A stretch of DNA of 64,000 nt, from positions 1 through 64,000 of the IMG/VR virus record IMGVR_UViG_3300029787_004704. One strand, given 5' to 3'. This document shows positions 6,131-27,002 of the stretch, in pieces (the first letter of the stretch is position 1; each line of letters opens with the position of its first letter). This DNA is from a virus. The notes under the pieces are model-generated. The model did no database searches, was not told where the DNA came from, and saw only the letters and a list, made by a program, of their open reading frames with translations. The position numbers and the translations under genes are program-made.

Positions 6131-8047
6131 ATGCGTCACATATTGCTTAGTCAACCAAATTTTAGAACAGGCCAAGGATCATTTGAATCATACTGGTTGC
6201 CCTATTCTGTGGGGTGCCTATGGGCCTATGCCCAACAGCATGACACCATAAGATCTGCATATACAGTGCGAGACATTGTGTTCCGTAGGCATGACATTGA
6301 CTCATATGTGGGTGATCTTGAGTCAGTGGATGTGGCATTTTTCTCTCTGTATATGTGGAACAGGAACTATCAACATCATCTTGCTCGTGCTGTTCGAGCC
6401 AAGTATCCTCACTGTGTGATTGTGTACGGTGGACCTGAAGTTCCAAATCCTATGCCTGCTGATTGGTTAGACACACACCCATGGATTGACACAGTGGTGC
6501 TTAACGAAGGCGAACTTCCTTTTGTTGACATACTAAACACTTTGGCTGATGGCGACACTGTGGCAACTCAGTATGAAGGGTCTCGCATGACTGATCTAGA
6601 TGTGCCATCGCCCTACACCACAGGCGTGTTTGATTCTATCATTAGGTCAAATCCAGAAGTGCAGTTCAACGCCACCATAGAAACCAACAGAGGCTGTCCG
6701 TTCTCTTGCACATTCTGTGACTGGGGATCACTTACATATTCTAAGATAAAACAGTTTCCTATGCACAAGGTTATGGCAGAACTAGACTGGGTGGCTCGAA
6801 ATCGCTTGGAGTACATCACTATTGCTGATGCTAACTTTGGTGTGTTGTTCAAACGCGACATGCAGATCACTGATCGATTGATTGAACTGCAACAGAACAC
6901 AGGTTATCCTACTGTGGTAAATGCAACATGGTACAAGAATTCATCGGAACAGGTACTGGAGATTGTAAAAAAGTTTGCAGGATCAGGATTCAACAGAGGC
7001 ATGACCCTATCTATGCAAAGCATGGATGACACAGTATTGGAAAATATCAAACGCAAAAACATGGAGATATCCAATCTCAAACATATTTTTGATCAGTGTA
7101 ACAGACAGGACATAAAGAGTTACACAGAACTTATCTTAGGTCTGCCACACGAAACATATGATACATGGTGTGATGGTTTGTGTAGTGTGATTGAAGCAGG
7201 ACAGCATGGGGCTATAGAAACTTGGCTATGCCAGATATTGATCAACGCAGAACTAAACACACCACAACAGAAAGAAGAGCATGGCATATCTACTGTTACA
7301 GTGTATGACTATGTGACTGCCAATTTAGATTCAGATGGCATATCAGAAACTTCAGAACTGATCAATTCAACCAAATACATGAATACGGATCAGATGATTG
7401 AATCATGGACATATGGTTGGATGATCATTAACTTCCATTGTTTTGGTTGGAGTCAAGTGTACACGAGACTAGCCAATCAACGTGGTGTGTCTTACAGAGA
7501 GCAGTATGATCTACTGTTTAAACAAATACGTGAAGATGTTGGTATAGTGGGCCATACATACAGACAAGCAATGGCTACAATTGATCAGTATCTACGCACA
7601 GGCAAAGGTGCATCAGCTGGACACATGATACAGTATCGAGCACAATCTCAATTACATCTGCATCGCGCCGAGGTGATTGCATTTATTGATTCTGTGTTTA
7701 CTGCTGAATATCTCAATCTCACACCAAATCAGTATCTAGATCTACAGCAGTATCAACATGCATACACCACTGATCCAAACGCAACATATCCTTATAGTCT
7801 GCAGTTGAAACACAATTGGCCAGATGTATTGTTGGGAGATGACATTGTGGAGACAAACTCCGGTGAGTATATCGTGGACTGTCTTGAACATAATGTGCCA
7901 CCGGACGAATATGTAAATAGATTGTATTATCGTAGACGTCAAGGATGGGGCAAGTCTGTGATAACTAAAACAAATATAGTGTCCCAAACAGATTCAAATT
8001 GGCAAGCTATTGATTACAAATCAATTGCTCTATCAACTCCAGCGTAA
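6131..8047 (+). CDS. B12-binding-type radical SAM enzyme
   Basis: 638 aa. The N-terminal ~130 residues have the layout of a cobalamin-binding Rossmann domain (VDVAFFSLYMWNRNY, VIVYGGPEVPN, VVLNEGELPFVDIL). The radical SAM cluster motif follows as CPFSCTFC (Cys189, 193, 196), which binds the [4Fe-4S] centre. Such enzymes catalyse methylations or rearrangements at unactivated carbons. The last 14 codons are encoded by a fragment identical to part of the tRNA-Thr gene at 2243, read on the opposite strand from the tRNA, so the original C-terminus may have been replaced. Base composition is richer in G+C than the genes just upstream, suggesting a separate origin. Confidence 0.85.
   Translation: MRHILLSQPNFRTGQGSFESYWLPYSVGCLWAYAQQHDTIRSAYTVRDIVFRRHDIDSYVGDLESVDVAFFSLYMWNRNYQHHLARAVRAKYPHCVIVYGGPEVPNPMPADWLDTHPWIDTVVLNEGELPFVDILNTLADGDTVATQYEGSRMTDLDVPSPYTTGVFDSIIRSNPEVQFNATIETNRGCPFSCTFCDWGSLTYSKIKQFPMHKVMAELDWVARNRLEYITIADANFGVLFKRDMQITDRLIELQQNTGYPTVVNATWYKNSSEQVLEIVKKFAGSGFNRGMTLSMQSMDDTVLENIKRKNMEISNLKHIFDQCNRQDIKSYTELILGLPHETYDTWCDGLCSVIEAGQHGAIETWLCQILINAELNTPQQKEEHGISTVTVYDYVTANLDSDGISETSELINSTKYMNTDQMIESWTYGWMIINFHCFGWSQVYTRLANQRGVSYREQYDLLFKQIREDVGIVGHTYRQAMATIDQYLRTGKGASAGHMIQYRAQSQLHLHRAEVIAFIDSVFTAEYLNLTPNQYLDLQQYQHAYTTDPNATYPYSLQLKHNWPDVLLGDDIVETNSGEYIVDCLEHNVPPDEYVNRLYYRRRQGWGKSVITKTNIVSQTDSNWQAIDYKSIALSTPA
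8007..8032. repeat. Direct repeat copy 2 (tRNA-Thr fragment in radical SAM gene)
   Basis: 26 bp identical to 2274-2299, same orientation. Flanking sequence does not fold as a tRNA: no T arm or acceptor stem can be drawn. It is therefore a fragment, not a second gene. It encodes the C-terminus of the radical SAM protein. Confidence 0.85.
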
Positions 8048-10016: not shown

Positions 10017-10731
10017 ATATACGTTTCACTATTTCATCATACAGCAGTTTGTGTCCATTGCGATCAGGATGTTGCCCGTCACGTGCAAACCATTCGTGGT
10101 CGTCACGTGCTGTATTTTTCTTTATCACAGCATCCATTACCTTCACAGTTTGGTTTTTATCTTGCCCGTCGAGCGTGTTTACTAACCATTCAACATCATC
10201 CCATTGTGAATCAGCGGCCGTCGCGGTGAACTGATCAATCCATGATGGCCATAACACGTTGATACCAAGTGCTTCATATGGGGCAGGATTCAGACTGCAC
10301 AGTCCCCCAACCACCCAAAAGTCTTGTCCTTGAAAGTTTTTGTGTATCTCAGATGCCAACCATGTATCGTAATCATCTGCTAGTTTTTGCCAATCATGGT
10401 GTTGGTTCCACCAATACAGCCATATCTTGTATCGGTTTTGATCTATGTTGTCATCAATAGCCTGTAATGGATGGAATAATAAATCTCTAATTGGATCGGT
10501 CTTGACCAATAACCAATGCATCACATTCATATCTTTCAGATGTGTCAGATTCTTTAAAGCATCACGATTGCTTAATCCATTCTGTCCTACATTGATAGTT
10601 TGATAATTGTTAGACTCTAGATAAAAAGATAAACCTCTGTGTGTAATTTGATATTCATCGCCCACATGTGAAAACTCTCCTTGTGTGTACGAACAACCTG
10701 ATACAGCAAGATTATAATACCATCTAGGCAT
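10000..10731 (-). CDS. SGNH-hydrolase-like protein
   Basis: 243 aa. Block I is seen as LAVSGCSYTQGE near residue 10, where Ser would be the nucleophile in a GCS variant of GDS. The C-terminal RDGQHPDRNGHKLL supplies the Asp/His block. INVGQNGLSNRDALKN fits block II/III with Gly and Asn oxyanion residues. The start codon overlaps the stop of the nucleotide-sugar dehydrogenase as TAATG. Likely an esterase acting on glycan acyl groups; substrate unknown. Confidence 0.65.
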   Translation of the reverse strand: MPRWYYNLAVSGCSYTQGEFSHVGDEYQITHRGLSFYLESNNYQTINVGQNGLSNRDALKNLTHLKDMNVMHWLLVKTDPIRDLLFHPLQAIDDNIDQNRYKIWLYWWNQHHDWQKLADDYDTWLASEIHKNFQGQDFWVVGGLCSLNPAPYEALGINVLWPSWIDQFTATAADSQWDDVEWLVNTLDGQDKNQTVKVMDAVIKKNTARDDHEWFARDGQHPDRNGHKLLYDEIVKRIFDDDE

Positions 10732-11891
10732 TACTTTCTTCCGTAGTGTACAACTTTAATTTTATCGTAGAATGTATTGTATTTTCTGTACATGTCGACA
10801 ACTACAGATCCTTCTGCAAAGTTGCCTGCTGAATAGTCAACTGGATGTGCTAACAGATACACTGCAGGAGAAACACTGTATTGATCATATGTAACTTTTT
10901 GTCCTGCTTGTTCAACATAGTGTCCAACCAACATTGATGTTGAACCATCTGTTAGATTAGTTTCTGGTTTGAATGATTTACCTAATATGTGTACAGGCAA
11001 ATTGTGACTTAATAATTCTTTGGCAACATTTTCTGCTTGTATCTCTCTTGCCTGCATAATAGATTTGAATAGGTCATAACCTAGATCTAATTTTTCTGCT
11101 AACCAACTCAATGCAATATTATCTCTAGGATGACATGGTCCGCCATCTCCCATTCCTGGTTCCATATACTTGTCTGATACAATTCTGTCTGCATGTCTAA
11201 GAGACTCTGCTATCACAGTTGGATTAGCATGTCCAATTTTGTTTGTAACATCTTGAATCATATTGGCAATGCCTACCTTGGCTGAAATATATGTGTTGTG
11301 GAATATCTTTATACACTCTGCTTCTTCCCATGTACCTAATGTAGTGTGTGGTATTCTTTTTGTTTGCACTGTTTTATAAAACTCTACCAACTTGTCTGCT
11401 TTCTTTTTATTCTCTTCAGTTGGGTAACGATCAAATCCTAACATCATAATGTCTGGAGCAAGAAAGTCTTCGGTCACTGTACCCATAGCAATCAGATAAG
11501 GATTGTAAACAAATCGATCACCAATGCCAAGTTCAGTTAACATTGGCCTAAGTGTGCCTGGAAGCACAGTTGATATGTTTACTATCATTGCATCTTTAGG
11601 AGCATACTCTACAAGATGTGTTAGTGTCTTTTTTAAATATTGATAATCAAAGTCTTTAGTAGGCAATTCAGATGAAGGAGCTTCGCCTCCATATGCTGGA
11701 TCATGTGGAGTAGGCACAGCAATAAAAATTATTTCTGAACCGTTACAAGCATTGAATAATGAATTACAAATTTGTATTTTTTCATTTCTAATATTGGTAT
11801 CAACATCATAACCTTTTACATCATGCTGTTCAGCCATTACTTCCGCAACTGGTAATCCTAGTTTACCTAGTCCTATCATTGTCACTTGCAT
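10731..11891 (-). CDS. UDP-glucose/GDP-mannose-type nucleotide-sugar dehydrogenase
   Basis: 386 aa. The N-terminal NAD-binding motif GLGKLGLPVA lies at residue 7. The middle domain carries EEAECIKIFHNTY with the conserved Glu, Lys and Asn, and the catalytic Cys253 lies in GGPCHPRDN. The family oxidises the C6 hydroxyl of a nucleotide sugar to a uronate in two NAD-dependent steps. The C-terminal domain (HILGKSFKPETNLTDGS) is complete, and the length fits the family's short members. The start overlaps the stop of the tiny basic protein gene (TAATG). It would supply a uronic acid donor to nearby transferases. Confidence 0.88.
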   Translation of the reverse strand: MQVTMIGLGKLGLPVAEVMAEQHDVKGYDVDTNIRNEKIQICNSLFNACNGSEIIFIAVPTPHDPAYGGEAPSSELPTKDFDYQYLKKTLTHLVEYAPKDAMIVNISTVLPGTLRPMLTELGIGDRFVYNPYLIAMGTVTEDFLAPDIMMLGFDRYPTEENKKKADKLVEFYKTVQTKRIPHTTLGTWEEAECIKIFHNTYISAKVGIANMIQDVTNKIGHANPTVIAESLRHADRIVSDKYMEPGMGDGGPCHPRDNIALSWLAEKLDLGYDLFKSIMQAREIQAENVAKELLSHNLPVHILGKSFKPETNLTDGSTSMLVGHYVEQAGQKVTYDQYSVSPAVYLLAHPVDYSAGNFAEGSVVVDMYRKYNTFYDKIKVVHYGRK

Positions 11892-12071: not shown

Positions 12072-12620
12072 TTAATATGGCACTAATGAATTTAGAAAAT
12101 CCTCAGATGCTTTGTTGGCGTTTCTAGATATAATTCTATGCCACATTTTTGATTTGCGTTTATAGTTGGCCCAAACTATTTCGTTGTATTCGTCTTCTAA
12201 CCAAATTTTATTATCCACTTCAGCATCTAGTTGGCCAGGCTGCCACGAGCAAAATCCTAGCATAATCTTATAAAAAGTAGGCCCTTTTCCACGTGCAATA
12301 TCTTCAGCAATCTGTTCATTGAATGTGATTGCACAGTAATCATTCATTTGATTACTGCCTGAGATCATATAATCTAAACTGTGAATAATGGTAACTTTTT
12401 CTGTGGCCATAGGGCCACCACAGTATATTGGTTGTTTAGGCAACACTGTCTTGATCCCATATATTCTACTGATTTGACTGTAATCTATATTCATTACTTG
12501 TTGATTCATTATGAATCCTATGGTGCTGTCAATTTGATTGCCCAACATAATCACGGCATGTTGCCATAGATTGAAGTTATTGGCATTGACGTTTTTGCCT
12601 GACAGTATTAATTCGCTCAC
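12072..12620 (-). CDS. AlgH/UPF0301 (DUF179) family protein
   Basis: About 182 aa from a GTG at 12620. Family motifs are clear: HAVIMLGNQIDSTIGFIMN, IYCGGPMATEKVTIIH, and the typical GFCSWQPGQLDAEV. The bacterial family (AlgH/YqgE) is structurally known but functionally vague; it is sometimes linked to regulation or RNase H-like folds. An upstream ATG would overlap the divergent gene at 12659, so I prefer the GTG, which lies 4 nt after a GTAAATAT box. Occurrence in a phage is unusual but not unique. Confidence 0.75.
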   Translation of the reverse strand: MSELILSGKNVNANNFNLWQHAVIMLGNQIDSTIGFIMNQQVMNIDYSQISRIYGIKTVLPKQPIYCGGPMATEKVTIIHSLDYMISGSNQMNDYCAITFNEQIAEDIARGKGPTFYKIMLGFCSWQPGQLDAEVDNKIWLEDEYNEIVWANYKRKSKMWHRIISRNANKASEDFLNSLVPY

Positions 12621-12624
12621 ATAA

Positions 12625-12632
12625 ATATTTAC
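12625..12632 (-). promoter_or_regulatory. Late-type promoter GTAAATAT
   Basis: GTAAATAT on the minus strand, 4 nt before the GTG of the AlgH-like gene. It fits the spacing seen at other genes in the window. Confidence 0.45.
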
Positions 12633-12658
12633 ATTATAAGTAGTAAGAGTAACAATTA

Positions 12659-13585
12659 ATGAGCACATACAAACTTACATTTTCAACTATGCACAATGCC
12701 TGGGCTAATGACGAAAAGATCAGTGCGGCAGGCCAAGATGCAGGCGATTCTACAAATCCATACTCGGACACAGCATACACAGTAACCCTCACTTTAGACG
12801 GCACACAGGTTGCTGAAGCAGAGGTTGACGGCTCGGCAACATTGTCATTTGATGCTGATCTAAGTGCAGGCAATCATGTCCTGGTTGCAACTTGCTCGGC
12901 TGGAACCGCTGGTGTGGTAATTGATAAGTTTGAAATAGGCTCTAACGAAGTAGTTGCTTCAAGATTAAAATACAACGAAGTAACAGCAGGTGGATCAGAT
13001 TTACTTAGATGGAAACTGTGTCATCCATGGACTAGTTGTGATGAATCATCAACTTATAATGTATGGTGGTCAATGGTCAAAGAAGACGGTTCATTCTTGT
13101 TGAACGCAATGACATATAGACCGCCGCTGTTTGCAGGCAACGAAATGCATTTCAATCTAACAAAACATTCTAACAATGTGTTGTCATTAACAGATACATA
13201 TGCATTTGATCCTGCCTCTGTAAATTTTGATTCTACAGAAACAACCAAATATTATTTGGCAGTGAAACCATCTTCTATAGTTGGATCTGCAGAGCAAGAT
13301 CCAAATAGTGTTGAACTACCAGATAGTTCAACAGATGAAGATTCATCTGCAACTTATGATGGAAGTTCTGCCGCGGATGCGAGCATGGTTGATTCATCTA
13401 CTCCACAATACATTGGCCCGGGCCAGTATGATGAAAATCTTGTGTGGCACAGTGATTCAATTGATGACAGCGATGATACTGCTGACAGAATTGTTATACT
13501 ATCCAAAACAGAATGGCAGAGAGCTAGAATAGTGTACAACTGGTCCAACGCCGGCAATTCAATCACACCAATCACAGTAACATAA
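12659..13585 (+). CDS. Putative virion-associated beta-rich protein
   Basis: 308 aa, Ser/Asp/Thr-rich. The first ~100 residues resemble a jelly-roll carbohydrate-binding module, with VTLTLDGTQVAEAEVDGS followed by AGNHVLVATCSAGTAGV and an IGSNEV end strand. The middle holds aromatic-rich strands (YNVWWSMVKEDGSF). An acidic low-complexity stretch (DSSTDEDSSATYDGSSA) follows before the C-terminal strand. No enzyme motif is visible. It lies next to a small basic gene 1 nt downstream. A structural or glycan-binding role on the virion is my inference; I do not recognise the family. Confidence 0.45.
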   Translation: MSTYKLTFSTMHNAWANDEKISAAGQDAGDSTNPYSDTAYTVTLTLDGTQVAEAEVDGSATLSFDADLSAGNHVLVATCSAGTAGVVIDKFEIGSNEVVASRLKYNEVTAGGSDLLRWKLCHPWTSCDESSTYNVWWSMVKEDGSFLLNAMTYRPPLFAGNEMHFNLTKHSNNVLSLTDTYAFDPASVNFDSTETTKYYLAVKPSSIVGSAEQDPNSVELPDSSTDEDSSATYDGSSAADASMVDSSTPQYIGPGQYDENLVWHSDSIDDSDDTADRIVILSKTEWQRARIVYNWSNAGNSITPITVT

Positions 13586-13899: not shown

Positions 13900-15591
13900 A
13901 TGAAAGACACAAAGGCACTAGATCAAATAGGCGAACTTACCTCGCGTTTTGTACGCACTTGCCCTCCAACATTAAAGTATCAAGAAAGACTCGCAGAAGA
14001 GATGGAGATCATACTCTCGTTACGATTCGTTGACTACTTCGGTCAAATCAGAGATATCTTAGATCTTACCACAGACATACCACACATGACACGTGGCTCT
14101 GCTGGATCTTCATTGGTGTGTTACCTAATGGGAATAACAGACGTTGACCCAATGCAGTGGGACATTCCTGTGGCACGGTTTCTCAATCCCAAGCGAGACG
14201 ACTTACCAGATGTTGATATTGATTATCCTCACTATCGACAAGAAGAAGTTATGAATCGCATATTCAAAAAATGGCCAGGCAAGTCAGCACGTATATCAAA
14301 CTATGTGTTGTACAAAGACAAGTCTGCCAAGCGAGAAGCGGCAAAACGATTAGGGTACAAGGGACGACTGCCCAGGAAGTTTACCTATGAATCACTAGGC
14401 ATAGATCCAAAAGAAGCAAAGCGAATAGAAAACAAACTGAAAGGCAAAAAGAAATGTATATCAAAACACTGTGGAGGCATCTTAATGTTTACAAGGCAAT
14501 TACCAAAATCTTTAATATCACAAACAAATCAAATACTGTTGGACAAAAACGAAGTGGAGGATCTGGAACATCTCAAAGTGGACATCCTAGCCAACAGAGG
14601 ACTCAGTCAACTGCTGGACATAGATCCGATAACAAAGTTATACGAGTATCCAGAGATAGACGAGGCTACTTCGTCTTTGTTGAGTCGGGGAGACGTGTTG
14701 GGGGTAACCCAAGGAGAGTCACCCGCCATGAGAAGGTTGTTTAGAGCCATTCGACCAACATCAATGAGAGACTGTGTATTTGCCACGGCACTGATTAGGC
14801 CAGTGGCCATGCAAGGCAGACGCAAGGCATCTTTCTTCAACGACTGGACTGCTGACAGAGTATCGGACGTTGTGGTATGTGAAGATGATGCTATCATACA
14901 GATAGCACAGTTGATTGGATGTAACTACTATGAAGCAGACATGTATCGCAGAGCATTTGCTAAGAAGAATGAAGAACGTGTGATGGAGTTCATGACCAGG
15001 CTGGGCGATCATCCACGCAAGGATGAAGTGTTTGCAACACTACAAGAGTTAAGTGGTTTTGGATTGTGTAAGGCCCATGCTGTGAACTTAGGCAGATTGA
15101 TATGGGCATTAGCATATCAGAAAGCACACAACCAAAAAGGATTCTGGTCAGCCGCACTCAAACACTGTCACGGTTCCTACAAGAAATGGGTATACAAGAC
15201 AGAAGCCAAACGTGTTGGACTCACTCCTGTCACAGTATCTAAGTCTGATCAGTTTGACGATCCTGCATGGCAGTACAAGAAGTATGGATGGTGGTCATCG
15301 GAAAAATTCTTGCCAGGCTTCTACACACGGTCACTGTATCTAGATCGTATAGAATTTGCTGGATTGGTTGCTAATGGTAGAGTGTACAAGAGCGGACACA
15401 AAAAGTACGTGACCTTTGTAACACTAGGAGTAGACAACGGTTATTATGTGGATTGCACAATTAATCAACCATTTGCATATTCAGACACAGATGTCATACG
15501 TGGCATAGGTAAAATAAAACATCTAAACAATTCTGATTACATTGAAGTTATTGAATGTGAAAGTTTAAAGATTGATCAGTTTTACAATTAG
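13900..15591 (+). CDS. Reduced DNA polymerase III alpha (DnaE)-like protein
   Basis: 563 aa. Hallmarks of the C-family polymerase core appear in order: RGSAGSSLVCYLMGITDVDP (residues 65-84), the catalytic PDVDID (103-108, two Asp), LKVDIL (225-230, third Asp), a LIRPVAMQGRR segment, and FGLCKAHAVNLG with a fingers-like helix. The last ~80 residues look like an OB fold. The PHP domain that precedes the palm in bacterial DnaE is absent, and so is the tau-binding tail, so the protein is about half the usual length. All three catalytic Asp are present. T4-like phages replicate with a B-family polymerase, so this may be an accessory or repair polymerase. Its end overlaps gp41 convergently by 4 nt. 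Confidence 0.8.
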   Translation: MKDTKALDQIGELTSRFVRTCPPTLKYQERLAEEMEIILSLRFVDYFGQIRDILDLTTDIPHMTRGSAGSSLVCYLMGITDVDPMQWDIPVARFLNPKRDDLPDVDIDYPHYRQEEVMNRIFKKWPGKSARISNYVLYKDKSAKREAAKRLGYKGRLPRKFTYESLGIDPKEAKRIENKLKGKKKCISKHCGGILMFTRQLPKSLISQTNQILLDKNEVEDLEHLKVDILANRGLSQLLDIDPITKLYEYPEIDEATSSLLSRGDVLGVTQGESPAMRRLFRAIRPTSMRDCVFATALIRPVAMQGRRKASFFNDWTADRVSDVVVCEDDAIIQIAQLIGCNYYEADMYRRAFAKKNEERVMEFMTRLGDHPRKDEVFATLQELSGFGLCKAHAVNLGRLIWALAYQKAHNQKGFWSAALKHCHGSYKKWVYKTEAKRVGLTPVTVSKSDQFDDPAWQYKKYGWWSSEKFLPGFYTRSLYLDRIEFAGLVANGRVYKSGHKKYVTFVTLGVDNGYYVDCTINQPFAYSDTDVIRGIGKIKHLNNSDYIEVIECESLKIDQFYN

Positions 15592-16997
15592 TTGTCTTTG
15601 TTCATGTTAGCAATCAACTGTTTGATCTTTGATGACTCGATGTTTGCTTTAACTTTGCCAACATCGTCGCCTTCTGCTTTGTGTTCTTCTTTTGGTTCTT
15701 CTGATACTGTAGAAGTTCTTTTCAAGTTTTGATATATGCTTGGTGCTTGTTTCTTGAATGATTGATATTCCTCATCTTCAGCCAAGTCATGTATTCTCAA
15801 TGTGTCTATGTTAAATTCTAAATCAACCTTGTGTCCAACACCGGAACTTGATCTAGTTTTCATAAACTGTATTTGATACTTGCCACGTTCTCTCATTGCT
15901 CTGCTTGTAAAAATACCAATCACATTGTCTGCTGTTTGTATCTTAGACAGTCCGCCACTGATATGCGAATGATCAAACTCTATCTCTTCAACACTTGCTC
16001 TGTTCAACTGCGAAGCAGTAATCATCACACAGTTTAAATCCACTGCTAAGTTTCTAAGTTCTTCAGACACATATTTGTCTTTCACAAACAAGTCCGATGG
16101 TGATACACGTTTGTTGATAGGCATCAACAGATCTAGATAGTCAATCAATATCACATCACATTTAACATTGTGCTGAATTTCAAACTCTTTGATGTATGCT
16201 CTCACATCAATTGCAGTTGCACCACTTGGAAGATATTTTATACGCAACTTGCCCGACTCTTTTGCTTTCATCTTAACTTTAAGATCAACTGTGTCTAAGT
16301 CTTTGTATATGTCTCTTGTGTTTGTGTCAGTCATCATTGCGTCTATTCTCATGGCAGTCAAGTTCTCACTCAACTCTAATGTCACATACACAGCATTCAA
16401 TCCTTGTTCAACATAGTTGCAAGCCAAGTTTTGTAAAAACAAACTCTTACCAGCACCAGAGCCGCCTGCAAATATATTCAACTCGCCTCTGTTAAATCCA
16501 CCAAACAGTTTCTTATCAAAGTTCTTCCATCCTGTGGCCATTACACCATTGTTGTCTTTAAGTGCTTGAAGTCTTGCTTTTGGATCTTCAAAATAGTCAG
16601 TACCCATATCTCGAGTCAAACCAATTTGAACAGCCTCTTTGATCATTCCTTCTACAGGCCCAAACTCACCCTTCTCTAACAAGTCTGCAGATTTCAATAT
16701 GGCTGATTCTAATTCTTTGTGTCTTGAAAAAGATTCATACTCATCTAAGAACCATTCAAAATGTTTTGGGTCAATATCAGCCGCACTCAGTAAAGTAGAT
16801 CCTGTCTTTGCATTGACCATCTCAACTTCTGGCAACGTTTTATATTCTTGTGCATACTCATGAATAAACTTGGCCGCTTCACGCAGTTCAGCATCATAAT
16901 GTCTATAGAAGAAAATGTTCTGTGCTCTCACAAACGATTCGTTGTCTGCCAGAAACATTTCTAAGAATAATTTTTGTAAGTCCTTTGTATATTCCAC
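15588..16997 (-). CDS. 41: Replicative DNA helicase, T4 gp41-like (DnaB family)
   Basis: 469 aa. The RecA-like helicase domain has Walker A GGSGAGKS near residue 200 within GELNIFAGGSGAGKSLFLQ. The Walker B-like strand is VILIDYLDLL, followed by MITASQLNR and a C-terminal ISGGLSKIQTADNVIGIFTS, all typical of DnaB/gp41. The N-terminal half is the helical collar-type domain. It unwinds the lagging strand 5'-3' as a hexamer with primase gp61, whose gene lies two genes upstream. A roughly 60-residue charged tail follows the core. Confidence 0.93.
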   Translation of the reverse strand: MEYTKDLQKLFLEMFLADNESFVRAQNIFFYRHYDAELREAAKFIHEYAQEYKTLPEVEMVNAKTGSTLLSAADIDPKHFEWFLDEYESFSRHKELESAILKSADLLEKGEFGPVEGMIKEAVQIGLTRDMGTDYFEDPKARLQALKDNNGVMATGWKNFDKKLFGGFNRGELNIFAGGSGAGKSLFLQNLACNYVEQGLNAVYVTLELSENLTAMRIDAMMTDTNTRDIYKDLDTVDLKVKMKAKESGKLRIKYLPSGATAIDVRAYIKEFEIQHNVKCDVILIDYLDLLMPINKRVSPSDLFVKDKYVSEELRNLAVDLNCVMITASQLNRASVEEIEFDHSHISGGLSKIQTADNVIGIFTSRAMRERGKYQIQFMKTRSSSGVGHKVDLEFNIDTLRIHDLAEDEEYQSFKKQAPSIYQNLKRTSTVSEEPKEEHKAEGDDVGKVKANIESSKIKQLIANMNKDN

Positions 16998-17010
16998 AGT
17001 TTATATTATA

Positions 17011-17874
17011 TTACATTCCAATGACTCTGTCATTCGGATAATTGGTTATTAGTAATTCTTTTCTCTCTTTTTGGTCTTTCATGTATGTACCTGTACTTCT
17101 CATGGTGTACTTCAAATCCCATTCCATTAATGTGAATGTGTCAAACAAATCGGTTATAGTTTGGTTTGAATTGTATGTAATCATAAAGTTTGCTCTTAAT
17201 TTTTTTATGTCTTCTGCAAACTTATCATGACTAAACCCTTTGTGTTGTTCTCCGTTACGCCCATACAAATTTGCTTTTATATCATATGGTGGATCCAAGA
17301 ATACAAAATCTCCTTCTAGGTCATGACTGCCCCAGTTTGCTTTGAGTATATTTGAATAATCAGTACAAGTAATTTTCCATTCTTTAATAAGTTTTTGATA
17401 ATGCACAAGATTTTTGATGTTGTTGATTGTAAAATTTCCGTCATATGCTTGTTTAGAAAATGAACTTGCTTCAGTCAAACCTGAGAACGAACATTTGTTT
17501 AGAATAAAAAAACATATTCCTACAGTGTATTCGTCGCCTGTGATGATTAATTCTTTTGCATCACGAAACATTTGTTTTTGGTCATCTATTGAATTGTATG
17601 TTGATGCTTTAATTTTTAACAAGTCTATGGCCATTCTACTGCCTTGATCTTTTAAAGTTTTCCAAAATGCTATCAGTGGATAGTAGGAATCATTGACCCA
17701 AACAGGTACCCATGGCATATTTTTTGTAACATACAAAGCCATAGATCCGCCACCTACAAAAGGGTCTCTATATGCAGAAACTCTTTCTGGCAACAAAGTA
17801 CCTAGATAGTTTACTGCTCTAGATTTGCCTCCAGGATATCTTAGTGGTGTTTTAAGAGAGCCAAAGTTTTTCAT
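17011..17874 (-). CDS. dam: DNA adenine-N6 methyltransferase (Dam type)
   Basis: 287 aa. The SAM-binding motif TPLRYPGGKSR is at residue 9, DPFVGGGSMA at 37, and the catalytic DPPY at 194-197. This order is that of D12-class Dam enzymes, which methylate adenine, usually in GATC. It could protect phage DNA against host restriction or mark replication. The start overlaps the end of the primase gene by 23 nt in the same direction, placing it in the gp61-dam-gp41 operon. Confidence 0.92.
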   Translation of the reverse strand: MKNFGSLKTPLRYPGGKSRAVNYLGTLLPERVSAYRDPFVGGGSMALYVTKNMPWVPVWVNDSYYPLIAFWKTLKDQGSRMAIDLLKIKASTYNSIDDQKQMFRDAKELIITGDEYTVGICFFILNKCSFSGLTEASSFSKQAYDGNFTINNIKNLVHYQKLIKEWKITCTDYSNILKANWGSHDLEGDFVFLDPPYDIKANLYGRNGEQHKGFSHDKFAEDIKKLRANFMITYNSNQTITDLFDTFTLMEWDLKYTMRSTGTYMKDQKERKELLITNYPNDRVIGM

Positions 17875-18814
17875 GTAATTTTATCTTTGTTTTGTTTGTG
17901 TGTTTGTGTGCTAGTATGGCTTGCATAGTCAAGACTTTGCCGTATCGCAACACTGCATTATTAATATCTTTTACATCATTGTGCCATGGCGGCATGCTCA
18001 CAGACCAATTGTATTCAATTGCTTGATCGATCAGTTTGGTACCTGCCTTGTCTCTGTCTGGTACAACAATTACTTCTCTGTTCAAAGAATCAATTTGCAG
18101 TTTTTGTTTGTGTGCAATCTCTGAACCAAGTATAGCAACACTGTCTAGCACAATGGCATCAAATATGCCTTCAACTACAATTACAAACCTGCGTGACCAA
18201 TGTTGATTGTCCATGTTGAATACTGTTCCTGGTTGCACGTTTGCAAAATATTTTGGTCTTGTGTTTGCACCCATAGCTCTCGCAACAAACCCAATTGGTT
18301 TGTGTTGCCATGTAACAGGAACAATCACTCTGTCACGTTGTGATGGAGCAGTAAAAAATAAACTGTCTGTGACGCTGATGCCACGTGATTGTAGATAGTT
18401 CACACAGTCTGGTTGTTGTTGTATCACCACAGCATCATCCGGCACTTTTACAGTATCAAACTTTATCTCATTATCTAATGTTCGTTGTGCAATTTCTCCT
18501 TCACTTGCATATCCCATGGCCTGCATACTAAGTTTTCCTATTTCACTCATTGGTATATTGATCCATTGCATCAACTGTCTAAAACGTCTGTTCAAATATC
18601 TACCTGGCGTATAGTTGGCTTTCCATCCACAGTTGAAACAGTGATACTGAATACCACCGTCTGGCAAAAACCATATGCCACCACGCATTCTGGTATCAGC
18701 TGATTCATTATTGTGAACACAACATGGAGCATCAAATGATATCCAGCCACTTGGTGTCTTCTTTCGCTTAGACGGAAGACGTGACTCTACTGCTTGTTTG
18801 AGTTCAGGAAACAT
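17852..18814 (-). CDS. 61: DNA primase, T4 gp61-like
   Basis: 320 aa. An N-terminal zinc-binding domain shows PCCVH (Cys31/32, His34) and CFNC (Cys59, 62), followed by a toprim-like segment VVEGIFDAIVL with the acidic motif VVPDRDKAG downstream. It makes RNA primers for lagging-strand synthesis with the gp41 helicase encoded just downstream. Length and layout match gp61 of marine T4-like phages. Confidence 0.9.
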   Translation of the reverse strand: MFPELKQAVESRLPSKRKKTPSGWISFDAPCCVHNNESADTRMRGGIWFLPDGGIQYHCFNCGWKANYTPGRYLNRRFRQLMQWINIPMSEIGKLSMQAMGYASEGEIAQRTLDNEIKFDTVKVPDDAVVIQQQPDCVNYLQSRGISVTDSLFFTAPSQRDRVIVPVTWQHKPIGFVARAMGANTRPKYFANVQPGTVFNMDNQHWSRRFVIVVEGIFDAIVLDSVAILGSEIAHKQKLQIDSLNREVIVVPDRDKAGTKLIDQAIEYNWSVSMPPWHNDVKDINNAVLRYGKVLTMQAILAHKHTNKTKIKLHEKLWLS

Positions 18815-20613: not shown

Positions 20614-20988
20614 ATGAAGTTGAATGTAGAAGAAATTAAAGAGAATTACCCATTTCTATCCTTAGTACAGGTTGGAAAAATAGAACAAGTTGGGATCATA
20701 CAAAACGCTGATCCTAAAGTGTTAAGCATATATTGTGTAGACTCAGTGCCAAAAGCCTTAATAGAGGACTTCTTACAGTTCGGCCAAACATGGTGGTGGG
20801 AGAGCAATAGGAAATTGCCTATCAATATTTTTATTGGTAAGGATTTTATTAAATTCAAAAATGCTTTGAAAACCTTTTCAGCCAAAGATTGTTCTGTATC
20901 TTTCGGCCCTGTAACACGTCTCACTGATTTGACCAAAGACAAAAGAATCAGACGAAAAACTATTCAATTAGTACGCAGAGTCAAGTAA
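20614..20988 (+). CDS. Conserved hypothetical of marine T4-like phages (124 aa)
   Basis: 124 aa beginning with an amphipathic motif NVEEIKENYPFLSLV. A WWWESNRKLPINIFIG block is followed by a basic end RIRRKTIQLVRRVK. I recall similarly built proteins in marine cyanophage genomes, always uncharacterised. It converges with the DnaE-like fragment gene and overlaps it by 21 nt. Confidence 0.7.
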   Translation: MKLNVEEIKENYPFLSLVQVGKIEQVGIIQNADPKVLSIYCVDSVPKALIEDFLQFGQTWWWESNRKLPINIFIGKDFIKFKNALKTFSAKDCSVSFGPVTRLTDLTKDKRIRRKTIQLVRRVK

Positions 20989-21531
20989 ATTCATATTGAC
21001 CACAACTGCTCCGGCATATCCAAATGCATGAGCCTTCTTGAAGAAATAACTGCCGTCTTTAGGTTTTATCCATACCTCTTCAAGTATTTCTGGCCATGTC
21101 TTCTGTATCAAATGATATTTGGCTGGACGTATCACTGCAAGAGTTGCCGCAAGTTGTTCTAGATTAGCAGGCATCAATTTTGCCACGGTGTTGCTGTGAC
21201 CATTGAGATGAAACAACTGATCCACAAAAGTCTTATCATCAAGCCTATGCCATGGTGGCTCACGATCAAATAGTTCTTGCAGATGGTCACGTGATTTAAT
21301 TTGTGAATATAAGTTTACGTTGAGAATATCAATTTTAAAATATCCTAATTGATCCATAACTTTATAATCAATTGAACATTGATCGGTACCTGGAATACGT
21401 GGTGCTTCTGTGAAATATACACCTGTGTTGTGAGGCTTAGTGCCTTTGTCATCGATGATGGTTGCTCGAGTGTGTTTCACATGTTGCAACAACTCATTTC
21501 TATCTGCTACATCAATATCTATGTCAGGCAT
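20968..21531 (-). CDS. Second, short DNA polymerase III alpha-like protein
   Basis: 187 aa. It starts directly at a catalytic-type motif, MPDIDIDVADR. Then comes HNTGVYFTEAP (34-44), GYFKIDIL (65-70), and a C-terminal FFKKAHAFGYAGAVVVN resembling fingers residues. The order matches DnaE, but the glycine-rich segment before the palm, most of the fingers and the OB fold are absent. The two motif sets that would carry catalytic Asp remain. Alone it is too small for a polymerase. It might partner the 563-aa protein at 13900 or be a decaying copy. The frame shows no stop or shift and is well kept, so decay is not evident. Confidence 0.6.
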   Translation of the reverse strand: MPDIDIDVADRNELLQHVKHTRATIIDDKGTKPHNTGVYFTEAPRIPGTDQCSIDYKVMDQLGYFKIDILNVNLYSQIKSRDHLQELFDREPPWHRLDDKTFVDQLFHLNGHSNTVAKLMPANLEQLAATLAVIRPAKYHLIQKTWPEILEEVWIKPKDGSYFFKKAHAFGYAGAVVVNMNLLDSAY

Positions 21532-21562: not shown

Positions 21563-21862
21563 TCAATCGTCGCCGTATACTAACATGAACACTGTTGCGT
21601 CAGACCTTTGTTCGAATGTTACTACTGCAATTTGATTTTCGTAAAAGTCGTATTGTTCATTTACATCAGGTTTAGGAATAAAGTGCCAACCAAATTTTCC
21701 TGTGCAATTCTTTTTGAGCCATTCGACTCTATCACTGCCTACGCCCCAAGTGTTTAACTTTATTTCATATTTGTAATGATGTCTATAACCACATCCTTTA
21801 GGTACATATTCTTCATTGGATAATATCCCCAACCCATTATCAAGTGTTGTCGTTGAGTGCAT
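21563..21862 (-). CDS. Hypothetical protein (99 aa)
   Basis: 99 aa with several aromatic residues and a predicted alpha/beta mix (KYEIKLNTWG, WLKKNCTGKFGWHF, IAVVTFEQRSDATVF). It starts inside the end of the SpeD-like gene (23-nt overlap), so it is probably translated from the same message. Not recognised. Confidence 0.5.
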   Translation of the reverse strand: MHSTTTLDNGLGILSNEEYVPKGCGYRHHYKYEIKLNTWGVGSDRVEWLKKNCTGKFGWHFIPKPDVNEQYDFYENQIAVVTFEQRSDATVFMLVYGDD

Positions 21863-22226
21863 ACTCTCTATCTAAGAATTTGGTTTCTATATCTACAGGA
21901 TCAAATTGTTCTAATGCTTTCATTACAACTTTGGTATCTAAAGACGAGCAAGTGTATACGTCTAACTGTATAAGTGCAGGATCTAATTCGTCCCATACAT
22001 GCATAGCAATATGACTGGTTTCTATAATTCCTGCAATGGTCAATCCTGAGTTGCCGGGTGTGTCCACATAACCACAGATTGGATTGTGTTCTACATCTAG
22101 TTTTTTCATCCCTATATCTTTGACCAATTGATTCCACCATGCCACTGCATCGTCTGGCCACATCGGAGGATTATTGCATTCTGCTCTGACAATAATATGT
22201 TTGTGTTGTATTGCTTGATGTTCCAT
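21840..22226 (-). CDS. speD: S-adenosylmethionine decarboxylase-like (SpeD)
   Basis: 128 aa. The prokaryotic SpeD core is visible: ETSHIAMHVW (Ser71-His72 equivalent to the autocleavage Ser and nearby His) and LDVYTCSS with Cys93. Processed SpeD makes decarboxylated SAM, the aminopropyl donor for spermidine. Usually a Glu precedes the pyruvoyl-forming Ser; here it is Thr (E-T-S), so autocleavage should be checked. speD is a known auxiliary gene of marine T4-like phages. A TTAAATAC late-type box lies 7 nt upstream. Confidence 0.75.
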   Translation of the reverse strand: MEHQAIQHKHIIVRAECNNPPMWPDDAVAWWNQLVKDIGMKKLDVEHNPICGYVDTPGNSGLTIAGIIETSHIAMHVWDELDPALIQLDVYTCSSLDTKVVMKALEQFDPVDIETKFLDREYALNDNT

Positions 22227-24127: not shown

Positions 24128-24528
24128 GATTTTGCGTACTCCTTTATTTTCAGCAACATACTGTATGCCCCGTTGCGACGGTTGACCGAAAGTATGTTGC
24201 CAAAGTTTAGTTCTTCGGTCAAATCTCTTTCATTTGCTGTAATCTCATCTGGTGTATGTCCGCCATATATGTAACTGAACAACGTGACAACTCCTTTTGT
24301 AATCTGTGCATCTGAATCTGAATGAAATTTTATTATTCCATTTTTGAATTCTGGCACTAACCAAACTTGACTGACACAGCCTGAAACTTTAAATTCTGGT
24401 AGTCTATATTCTTCATTGAAGGGATCAGCCTGTTCTCCTTTATCCATCAGGAATCTATATCGGTCTAATGGATCTTCGAATATATTCATTACTTCTTTGA
24501 TTTCATCTATCTTCTTATCTATTGTCAT
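24115..24528 (-). CDS. sufE: SufE-like sulfur acceptor protein
   Basis: 137 aa, the normal SufE length. The active Cys51 lies in KVSGCVSQVWLVP, the family's diagnostic motif, at the same residue number as in E. coli. The N-terminal DPLDRYRFLMDKGEQADPF is also typical. SufE takes persulfide sulfur from the SufS cysteine desulfurase and passes it to the SufBCD scaffold for Fe-S assembly. A phage copy without SufS would have to use the host enzyme. Genes for a ferredoxin and a radical SAM protein in the same window suggest Fe-S supply during infection. Confidence 0.85.
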   Translation of the reverse strand: MTIDKKIDEIKEVMNIFEDPLDRYRFLMDKGEQADPFNEEYRLPEFKVSGCVSQVWLVPEFKNGIIKFHSDSDAQITKGVVTLFSYIYGGHTPDEITANERDLTEELNFGNILSVNRRNGAYSMLLKIKEYAKSCKT

Positions 24529-25199
24529 TCTATTCCTGCTTCTCTCAAAGTGTTTCTCACAAAATCTTTGTCCTCATCACGTTTTTTGAATGTTCTTTTC
24601 CACCATTCTGGGTCAATTATTTCATATATTATTTTTATCTGATCATCATGCATTATGGTTAACATGTCTTTGCCTGTCTCACAGTTCAACATCACCCATG
24701 GTGATATTTTACCATTTGCTATCATCTGTGTGACTCTATTCAAATTTACATATTTAAAAAAGTCTTCTAGTCTTGCATTTTCTTGTTGTGACCATTCATC
24801 CATTGTAAGTATGGTTCTGTTTAGTGCTTGAGGTACTGGCTCAGTACGTATCAATTGTTTAATGTATGTGTCCACAGTGCCTTGCTTCGCCCACGAGTCA
24901 ACTCTAATTTTGGATGTGCAAAGCCAATCAATAAATGCACCTATCTCGATTGGTGTGTTTGCTGTGATAAATTCTGCTGTCTTTATAAATGCCCTGTAAT
25001 ATTGGGATTGTGCAAAATCTGTAAATGTTTTTGGTTTCTGATTGTTGTAATTAATTTCATAGAATCTACGAAATATTTCAAATGCTAACACATGGACTTT
25101 GTTATCTTTCTGTACCCATCTGCGTTTTGGTTCACACATATGTACATCCATAGTGGACTGTCGTGAGAAATGTTTGTTACAATATTCGCAAGTTGGCAT
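24525..25199 (-). CDS. Zinc-finger-containing conserved phage protein
   Basis: 224 aa. The N-terminus has a C2H2-like finger: CEYCNKHFSRQSTMDVHMC. The remainder is helical with charged and aromatic residues (FEIFRRFYEINY, MTIMHDDQIKIIYEIIDPEWW). The finger suggests DNA or RNA binding. The start abuts the small membrane gene at 25203 and the end overlaps SufE by 4 nt. Not assigned to a T4 gene. Confidence 0.55.
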   Translation of the reverse strand: MPTCEYCNKHFSRQSTMDVHMCEPKRRWVQKDNKVHVLAFEIFRRFYEINYNNQKPKTFTDFAQSQYYRAFIKTAEFITANTPIEIGAFIDWLCTSKIRVDSWAKQGTVDTYIKQLIRTEPVPQALNRTILTMDEWSQQENARLEDFFKYVNLNRVTQMIANGKISPWVMLNCETGKDMLTIMHDDQIKIIYEIIDPEWWKRTFKKRDEDKDFVRNTLREAGIE

Positions 25200-25202
25200 A
25201 AC

Positions 25203-25400
25203 TTATTTTAACATCTTGTGTATGTTCTTGTAAAATGAATAGTCTCCTAATATAAACAAAATTTGATGTAAAAATAATGACGGTGATGTTCCTGTGAACA
25301 AAACCATAAATCCTATTAAAAAAAGTTGTTGTTGTAGAATGTACATGATGTATAAACCAACTGCTTTGCGAGGCACAGCATAGTTTAACCAATCAGTCAC
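25203..25400 (-). CDS. Small hydrophobic membrane protein (65 aa, GTG start)
   Basis: 65 aa starting with GTG at 25400 that overlaps the ThyX stop by 8 nt. One or two helices (GLYIMYILQQQLFLIGFMVLF, then SPSLFLHQILFILG). Another frame with a TTG start over the same bases gives a less membrane-like, Cys-rich product, so I prefer this one. Unknown role. Confidence 0.5.
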   Translation of the reverse strand: MTDWLNYAVPRKAVGLYIMYILQQQLFLIGFMVLFTGTSPSLFLHQILFILGDYSFYKNIHKMLK

Positions 25401-26082
25401 TTATTAAATCCTCTGCCATTGGAAATATTTTTGCAATCACTTCCGCACAAGCATGAGCAATATCCATATGTTCTTTTTGTGTACCGTGTCCGCCTCTTAG
25501 TTCTATGTAATGGATCCAACTTCTCAATGTGCCATTCATGTATAATCTTGTTTTGGTCAGTCCTTCGGGCAATATAACTCTTGCTTGTTCTTTTGCAATA
25601 CCTTTTTCAATTGCATTGTCATATGTGGATTTTGCTATTTCTATGATATGTTTCTGTTGAGCATCCCACCACAGTTGCAAGTCCATATCGGCAGTTGCAA
25701 TACTGTTCTGTCTATTAGTTGGATCTTGCATTCTTGCTTCTCTAATTTCAAACGTGTCGTCCATGTCTTGTGGATTTGCATACCTCTGTGAAAACTCTTG
25801 AAAAGAAAATGATCTGTGCCTTACAATCTGATGTGCAATATCTCTTGTGGTGTTGATCTCCAAACAAGCAGAAACCATTTCAAGTGGTGACCAATGTTGG
25901 TGTTTGATCAAATATCTAATTAATTTTTCTGATGTATCACTGTTCATTTGGTTCGAAGGATTGCTTACTCTTGCACAGTAGGCAATCAAGTCCTGGCAGT
26001 CCATAGGCATTTTGCTCACAGCATTCATACCTAATAATGTTTGATCTCCAACTTGTGAATATGAAATAAGTTTTGCTATCAA
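25393..26082 (-). CDS. thyX: Flavin-dependent thymidylate synthase ThyX
   Basis: 229 aa. The signature RHRSFSFQEFSQRY at residues 88-101 contains the RHR and S-R-Y of ThyX. It converts dUMP to dTMP using FAD, methylenetetrahydrofolate and NADPH, which frees the phage from the host's thymidylate supply. Common in marine T4-like phages in place of ThyA. Neighbouring genes overlap on both sides. Confidence 0.95.
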   Translation of the reverse strand: MIAKLISYSQVGDQTLLGMNAVSKMPMDCQDLIAYCARVSNPSNQMNSDTSEKLIRYLIKHQHWSPLEMVSACLEINTTRDIAHQIVRHRSFSFQEFSQRYANPQDMDDTFEIREARMQDPTNRQNSIATADMDLQLWWDAQQKHIIEIAKSTYDNAIEKGIAKEQARVILPEGLTKTRLYMNGTLRSWIHYIELRGGHGTQKEHMDIAHACAEVIAKIFPMAEDLISD

Positions 26083-26663: not shown

Positions 26664-27002
26664 TCAATCAGGTGTATAGTCACTGCCATCGAATAAATCT
26701 GTCTTATCTGCTATTTTACTTGCTTCTTCATAACCTGGCATAGGGTCTTTTTGATCTACTATTTGGTTGTTGTACCATTTATCTGCATATTCCTTGTTAA
26801 TGTTTGTCCAGTGAATGATGCTGTCTGAGTCTGGTTTAATTGCGTCCTCAGGACATTCAGGCTCACAAACACCACAGTCTATGCATTCGTCTGGGTGGAT
26901 GACTAGCATGTTTGGCCCTTCGTAGAAACAATCCACAGGACACACAGACACACAGGTTGTGTGTTTGCACATGATACATTTGTCATCCACCACATAAGTC
27001 AT
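26664..27002 (-). CDS. fdxA: 7Fe ferredoxin, FdxA type
   Basis: 112 aa, the same length as alphaproteobacterial FdxA. Cys9, 12, 17, 21 and 25 in the first motif and Cys40, 43, 46, 50 in [12 protein letters not shown] would hold a [3Fe-4S] and a [4Fe-4S] cluster. The [10 protein letters not shown] linker and the long acidic tail are also family traits. It would carry electrons to an unknown partner: candidates in the window are the radical SAM enzyme or host reductases. Close to SufE, which would help build its clusters. Likely acquired from a host. Confidence 0.9.

Follow-up and report, generated by a model that had tools for sequence, protein, structure and literature searches.

The window, a stretch of 64,000 nucleotides taken from a 108-kb viral record, encodes a C-family (DnaE-type) DNA polymerase in a single chain of 563 amino acids, built from palm, short thumb, fingers and OB fold. 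The record is a marine T4-like phage genome, as the first-pass annotation had it, with genes for gp32, UvsX, UvsY, the phrog_16 DNA helicase, gp17, gp46/47 and gp55. A reduced C-family polymerase of phages that is split into two pieces has been known since 2021; the unsplit, single-chain form described here is new. The reading that we prefer, and consider rather probable, is that the protein serves as an active, replisome-associated second polymerase, together with the main B-family polymerase gp43, in a T4-type replisome. The genes that bear upon this are located in the window as follows:

13900 to 15591, plus strand: mini C-family DNA polymerase (mini-DnaE), 563 aa, open reading frame with an ATG start
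15588 to 16997, minus strand: gp41 DnaB-like replicative helicase, 469 aa (phrog_19, E 2e-74; DnaB_C)
17852 to 18814, minus strand: gp61-type primase with Toprim, 320 aa (phrog_47, E 4e-31; Toprim_2), in the same replication cluster
20614 to 20988, plus strand: 124-aa gene (phrog_11637, E 5e-28), antiparallel to half B and overlapping its end
20968 to 21531, minus strand: half B of the split minimal Pol III alpha, 187 aa (phrog_11778, E 1e-55)

A single-chain C-family polymerase

The motifs RGSAGSS, PDVDID and LKVDIL, picked out at first reading, are all present in the 563-aa protein. Starting at the N-terminus, RGSAGSS (residues 65-71) lies in the N-terminal helices of the palm, and the palm aspartates follow as D104 and D106 in PDVDID and D228 in LKVDIL. 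A short thumb spans about residues 127-190. The fingers contain GVTQGESPAMRR, the arginine pair at 350-351 and KAHA at 391-394, and the chain ends with an OB fold at residues 480-557. Pfam places DNA_pol3_alpha (PF07733) on residues 24-231 (E 6e-40) and DNA_pol3_finger (PF17657) on residues 247-365 (E 4e-15). The match in PHROGs is the DNA polymerase family phrog_405 (E 3e-63), and among solved structures those closest in sequence are of DnaE proteins (that of M. tuberculosis, 5lew, with E 4e-30).

On alignment with E. coli DnaE the residues D401, D403 and D555 correspond to D104, D106 and D228, so that the three expected catalytic aspartates are in place. G363 and S364 of the RGSA motif correspond to G66 and S67, K553 to K226, R709/R710 to R350/R351 and H760 to H393. 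In E. coli Pol III alpha D401, D403 and D555 are the active-site aspartates and H760 is the proposed steric gate (PMC8485763). All of D104, D106, D228, K226, R350/R351, H393 and RGSAG (65-69) are invariant in 17/17 sequences of an alignment in which the relatives share 57-88% identity with the window's polymerase and every protein is a single chain; changed aspartates in homologs, which would have spoken against activity, are found in none of those aligned.

The AlphaFold2 model, calculated with the 17-sequence alignment as input (pLDDT 82.6, pTM 0.82), was compared with DnaE structures, and its palm, of the Pol-beta type, carries the three aspartates intact. All 19 Foldseek matches in the PDB with E<0.001 are C-family polymerases. 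On superposition with VIA-align the model gives Z 22.3 against M. tuberculosis 5lew (413 residues, 4.8 Å) and Z 21.1 against the ternary complex of the Taq enzyme, 3e0d (494 residues, model residues 5-560); the value for PolC (3f2c) is 18.8, and the C-family matches fall in the range Z 14-22. The Taq Pol III alignment reaches residue 560, i.e. it passes through the end of the OB domain, and residues 480-557 match OB folds of the SSB/PriB type with Z 7.8 (borderline alone), in agreement with the OB-fold end that had been suspected. With the residues of the two-metal palm, of dNTP binding and of the steric gate all intact in alignment and model, the predicted catalytic competence of the protein is strongly supported.

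Judged from the coding sequences, the gene is under strong purifying selection. Its dN/dS against close relatives is 0.02-0.09, which rules out a pseudogene, and these values together with the 79 homologous contigs exclude a chance occurrence.

The lack of PHP and tau-binding domains, claimed at the outset, is upheld. No Pfam match to a PHP domain was found in the 563-aa protein, and the structure model begins at the palm. Upstream of the ATG the open frame runs for just 7 more codons, and there is therefore no room for a PHP domain. The end of the frame there and the equal length of the relatives rule out that a PHP domain is hidden upstream or that the gene is truncated or frameshifted. In the alignment, E. 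coli DnaE residues from about 860 to 970 (the HhH/beta-clamp-binding region) are without counterpart, as are those beyond about 1075 (the tau-binding domain). The C-terminal tails of the mini polymerases are varied (e.g. SLKIDQFYN, YSIDQWLN), and by their look may be candidate clamp-binding peptides.

Bacterial DnaE1 (M. tuberculosis 5lew/7pu7, Taq 3e0d, E. coli 2hnh) shares with the phage protein the palm, the fingers, the OB fold and the catalytic residues. By comparison the phage protein is without the PHP-bearing N-terminus (about 270 residues), some 130 residues of HhH/beta-binding region and, at the C-terminus, the tau domain, and both its thumb and its fingers are shortened. Larger DnaE-like polymerases of phages share the C-family core with 27-29% identity; with lengths computed from the annotated genes, these include the enzymes of Streptomyces phage Nabi (1159 aa), Rhizobium phage RHph_N1_15 (1135 aa) and Cronobacter phage Ss1 (931 aa).

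Half B and the split polymerase of jumbo phages

The window contains a second C-family gene, which the first-pass annotation had missed (20968-21531, minus strand). The match to phrog_11778, the start at PDIDID and the synteny with gp61 and gp41 identify its 187-aa product as half B of a split minimal Pol III alpha. The protein begins with MPDIDID and retains KIDIL and KKAHA, with neither an RGSA motif nor an OB fold, and the Asp, Lys and His of its motifs are invariant in 25 sequences. The model (pLDDT 90.5) comprises a C-family palm and fingers, and aligns with those of Taq Pol III alpha (3e0d) with Z 9.7 over 185 residues. The 124-aa gene that overlaps the end of half B has a counterpart in the same position and orientation in RaK2, PA5oct, Atu_ph07 and Phosso, and in these phages half B has similar neighbours, namely this small antiparallel gene along with genes for a structural protein, the primase and gp41. 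In marine contigs a zinc-finger-like gene (phrog_11058, CEYC...H.C; 24525-25199, minus strand, in the window) is often found directly upstream of half B.

The split minimal Pol III alpha was described in group 2.2 jumbo phages, where it stands beside a B-family polymerase, by Iyer et al. 2021 (PMC7824862), who proposed a role in strand synthesis or repair. A survey of marine jumbo phages gives PF07733 in 51.9% of one cluster (PMC9123017). In RaK2, PA5oct, Atu_ph07 and XacN1 the enzyme is formed by phrog_11127 (half A) and phrog_11778 (half B). Half A is a separate gene of ~175 aa that has an RGSS motif and ends directly before PDIDID; with the roughly 190 aa of half B the total is ~365 aa, and the break falls after RGSS. 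The likeness to the 563-aa protein is extensive. Both are without PHP, beta-binding and tau domains, and both place a C-family palm and fingers in T4-superfamily phages. The split form co-exists with B-family gp43 and its half B is coded near gp41/gp61, half B itself being present also in this window. The 563-aa protein differs in being one chain, and in retaining a thumb remnant and the OB fold. Its earlier description as a minimal catalytic core is overstated, the split form of the jumbo phages (about 175 + 190 aa, PMC7824862) being smaller.

In a tree the mini and split forms are separate lineages with a very long branch between them. Half B and the intact mini polymerase occur together in 15 of the 18 records searched. 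Half A is widespread as a stand-alone gene in T4-like phage contigs. At 80 further half-A loci in such contigs (L305-L384) it is followed nearly always by a small 'NARGD' gene and a GroES-like gene, and the clamp loader gp44 usually lies downstream where the contig is long enough. With half A beside the clamp loader and half B beside primase and helicase, the gene order supports a replisome role. The 563-aa protein is probably the unsplit functional counterpart of the split enzyme found in RaK2-like jumbo phages.

Gene neighbourhood and proposed role

Relatives of the mini polymerase are encoded in 79 IMG/VR contigs, so the search for the same gene in other phages suggested by the annotation has a positive answer. 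The sole close full-length relative among the phage records searched is a 575-aa protein of LR756508, a 484-kb uncultured huge phage, with 38% identity over 98% of its length. It belongs to a different phage lineage and has the same domain content, with asparagine at the position of R351; in the tree it clusters with the marine proteins (bootstrap 99). The LR756508 record itself is unannotated. A pattern scan of genome contigs, with just two short patterns from the alignment, revealed no bacterial relative.

The gene adjoins gp41, as originally stated. The two genes are convergent, with a 4-base overlap at the end of the polymerase gene. A gp41 homolog is present at 79 of 87 mini polymerase loci (some contigs being counted twice), and lies within 3 kb in all but one. 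Relative to the polymerase gene it is convergent in 39 cases and codirectional in 40; as both orientations occur, the adjacency has outlived an inversion. Among more distant relatives, G010 and G015 have the polymerase gene next to gp43 with a phrog_12062 gene near, and G009 has it near UvsY/UvsX/gp32-like genes.

Several other genes of these regions were recorded. The phrog_12062 gene is linked to gp43 in RaK2, G010 and G015 and resembles a divergent sliding clamp in sequence, for which it is a candidate (L088:8472-9293, minus strand; L087:11021-11749, plus strand; L223:19954-20694, plus strand). The small-gene region past the polymerase gene contains a conserved ATPase-like protein of ~340 aa with a GPPGxGKS motif, very widespread in phage contigs (L018:1031-2095, L035:14488-15528, L043:8434-9432, L065:8880-9884). 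Between gp41 and gp61 lies a D12-class N6-adenine DNA methyltransferase (17011-17874, minus strand) that is present in some relatives and not in others (e.g. L018). Genes of host type in the window encode a radical SAM/B12-binding protein (6131-8047, plus strand) and, all on the minus strand, a member of the UDP-glucose dehydrogenase family (10731-11891), AlgH (DUF179; 12072-12668), S-adenosylmethionine decarboxylase (21840-22226), ThyX (25393-26082) and a 4Fe-4S ferredoxin (26664-27002). Of the T4 late-promoter sequence TATAAATA there are 3 copies against 4.3 expected, hence no enrichment.

From the conserved neighbourhood we infer that the mini polymerase has its role in the replisome. Location by gp41, gp43 or UvsY favours a function in replication or recombination over stand-alone lesion bypass; genome position alone separates neither replication from recombination nor from repair, and a shared neighbourhood is no proof of a complex. 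The mini-DnaE would copy short stretches at forks opened by gp41, either extending primers on the lagging strand or filling gaps in recombination-dependent replication, and would then hand its product over to gp43. A search of the 108-kb record gave no match to a DnaQ exonuclease; taken with the missing PHP domain and beta-binding region, this points to an enzyme that does not proofread and depends on a tether. The polymerase would be without proofreading of its own, and its processivity would probably be low unless it is tethered by another phage protein. The best fit is the extension of primers on the lagging strand, or the filling of gaps, before gp43 takes over.

The same lack of PHP and DnaQ proofreading could also mark a polymerase specialised for repair or lesion bypass, similar in function to DnaE2 and acting outside the fork. 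The enzyme is additional to gp43 in some relatives, and the UvsY/UvsX/gp32-like surroundings of the gene in G009 point the same way. Yet the gene adjoins gp41 or gp43 at nearly all loci, the dNTP-binding and steric-gate residues are invariant, and no ImuA/ImuB-like partner was recognised among the annotated genes. Repair or bypass is thus the weaker rival to primer extension and gap filling, and we regard it as doubtful.

The main polymerase and the completeness of the record

The mini-DnaE was originally taken for a second polymerase beside the B-family enzyme. That is borne out in G010, G015 and LR756508, where a B-family polymerase co-exists with it, but the window's own 108-kb record yielded no gp43. 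For the lineage of the window (the main group) we infer co-existence.

Of the 17 further records that carry the mini polymerase gene, 15 likewise gave no B-family polymerase, among them the remaining long contigs of the main group, and those of the records that were tested contain no A-family polymerase. Neither the 108-kb record nor its close relatives contain gp44 or a clamp-like gene, and the record has no separate half A (phrog_11127, RGSS). Contigs that extend past its gp55 end add baseplate, tail and other genes, and in about 35-45 kb of such sequence from relatives there is no gp44, clamp or half A. Among the 18 records with the mini polymerase, gp43 and half B never occur together in one.

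These absences are what would be expected if the mini-DnaE were the main or only replicase, gp43, gp44 and gp45 having been lost, and worked with the host clamp or another tether. This is possible but distinctly unlikely. Contigs of 98-117 kb that have half B without the mini polymerase gene are equally without gp43 and half A, but a 222-kb record with half B does have gp43, about 95 kb away, and gp43 is present in most records >200 kb. Moreover, the three relatives named above carry a B-family polymerase alongside the mini polymerase gene, and the protein is without the internal clamp-binding region of DnaE. The mutual exclusivity of gp43 and phrog_11778 in the 18 records was rejected as a sign of gp43 loss, as incomplete contigs explain it equally well.

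In relatives, half A, the GroES-like gene and gp44 form a block. Most long contigs break off close to the mini polymerase gene; G000, G002, G004, G005, G006, G007 and G038 tend to end no more than a few kb from it (14 kb in G000). This suggests that a variable region near the polymerase gene breaks the assembly and hides the gp43/gp44 block. Because gp44 and the clamp are missing along with gp43, the 108-kb record is probably incomplete, and the simplest reading is that its gp43/gp44 block is probably unassembled. No contig was found that bridges from the lineage to the missing block, via gp46/47, half A or the conserved AAA ATPase. A DNA_pol_B match in the contig of L001 was put down to chance, being weak (10.6 bits) and containing two stops.

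A marine T4-like lineage without B-family polymerase and phage clamp, whose genome is replicated by the 563-aa mini-DnaE, possibly with half B, and host factors, is to be considered quite improbable; if true, it would be a natural swap of replicase family within a T4 replisome that keeps gp41, gp61, gp32, UvsX and gp46/47. Least probable of all is a non-polymerising structural or regulatory subunit of the replisome, for which the large losses relative to DnaE and the presence of half B as a further C-family piece in the genome might speak, but against which stand the invariant Asp triad, Lys, fingers Arg and His gate and the C-family palm fold of the model.

C-family polymerases are the replicases of bacterial chromosomes, and are normally large multi-domain enzymes. 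An intact natural form of 563 aa under strong selection indicates that the PHP domain, the clamp-binding region and the tau domain are dispensable together, and would provide a convenient minimal enzyme for biochemistry. As a single chain, it makes the role of a second, bacterial-type polymerase beside gp43 directly testable.
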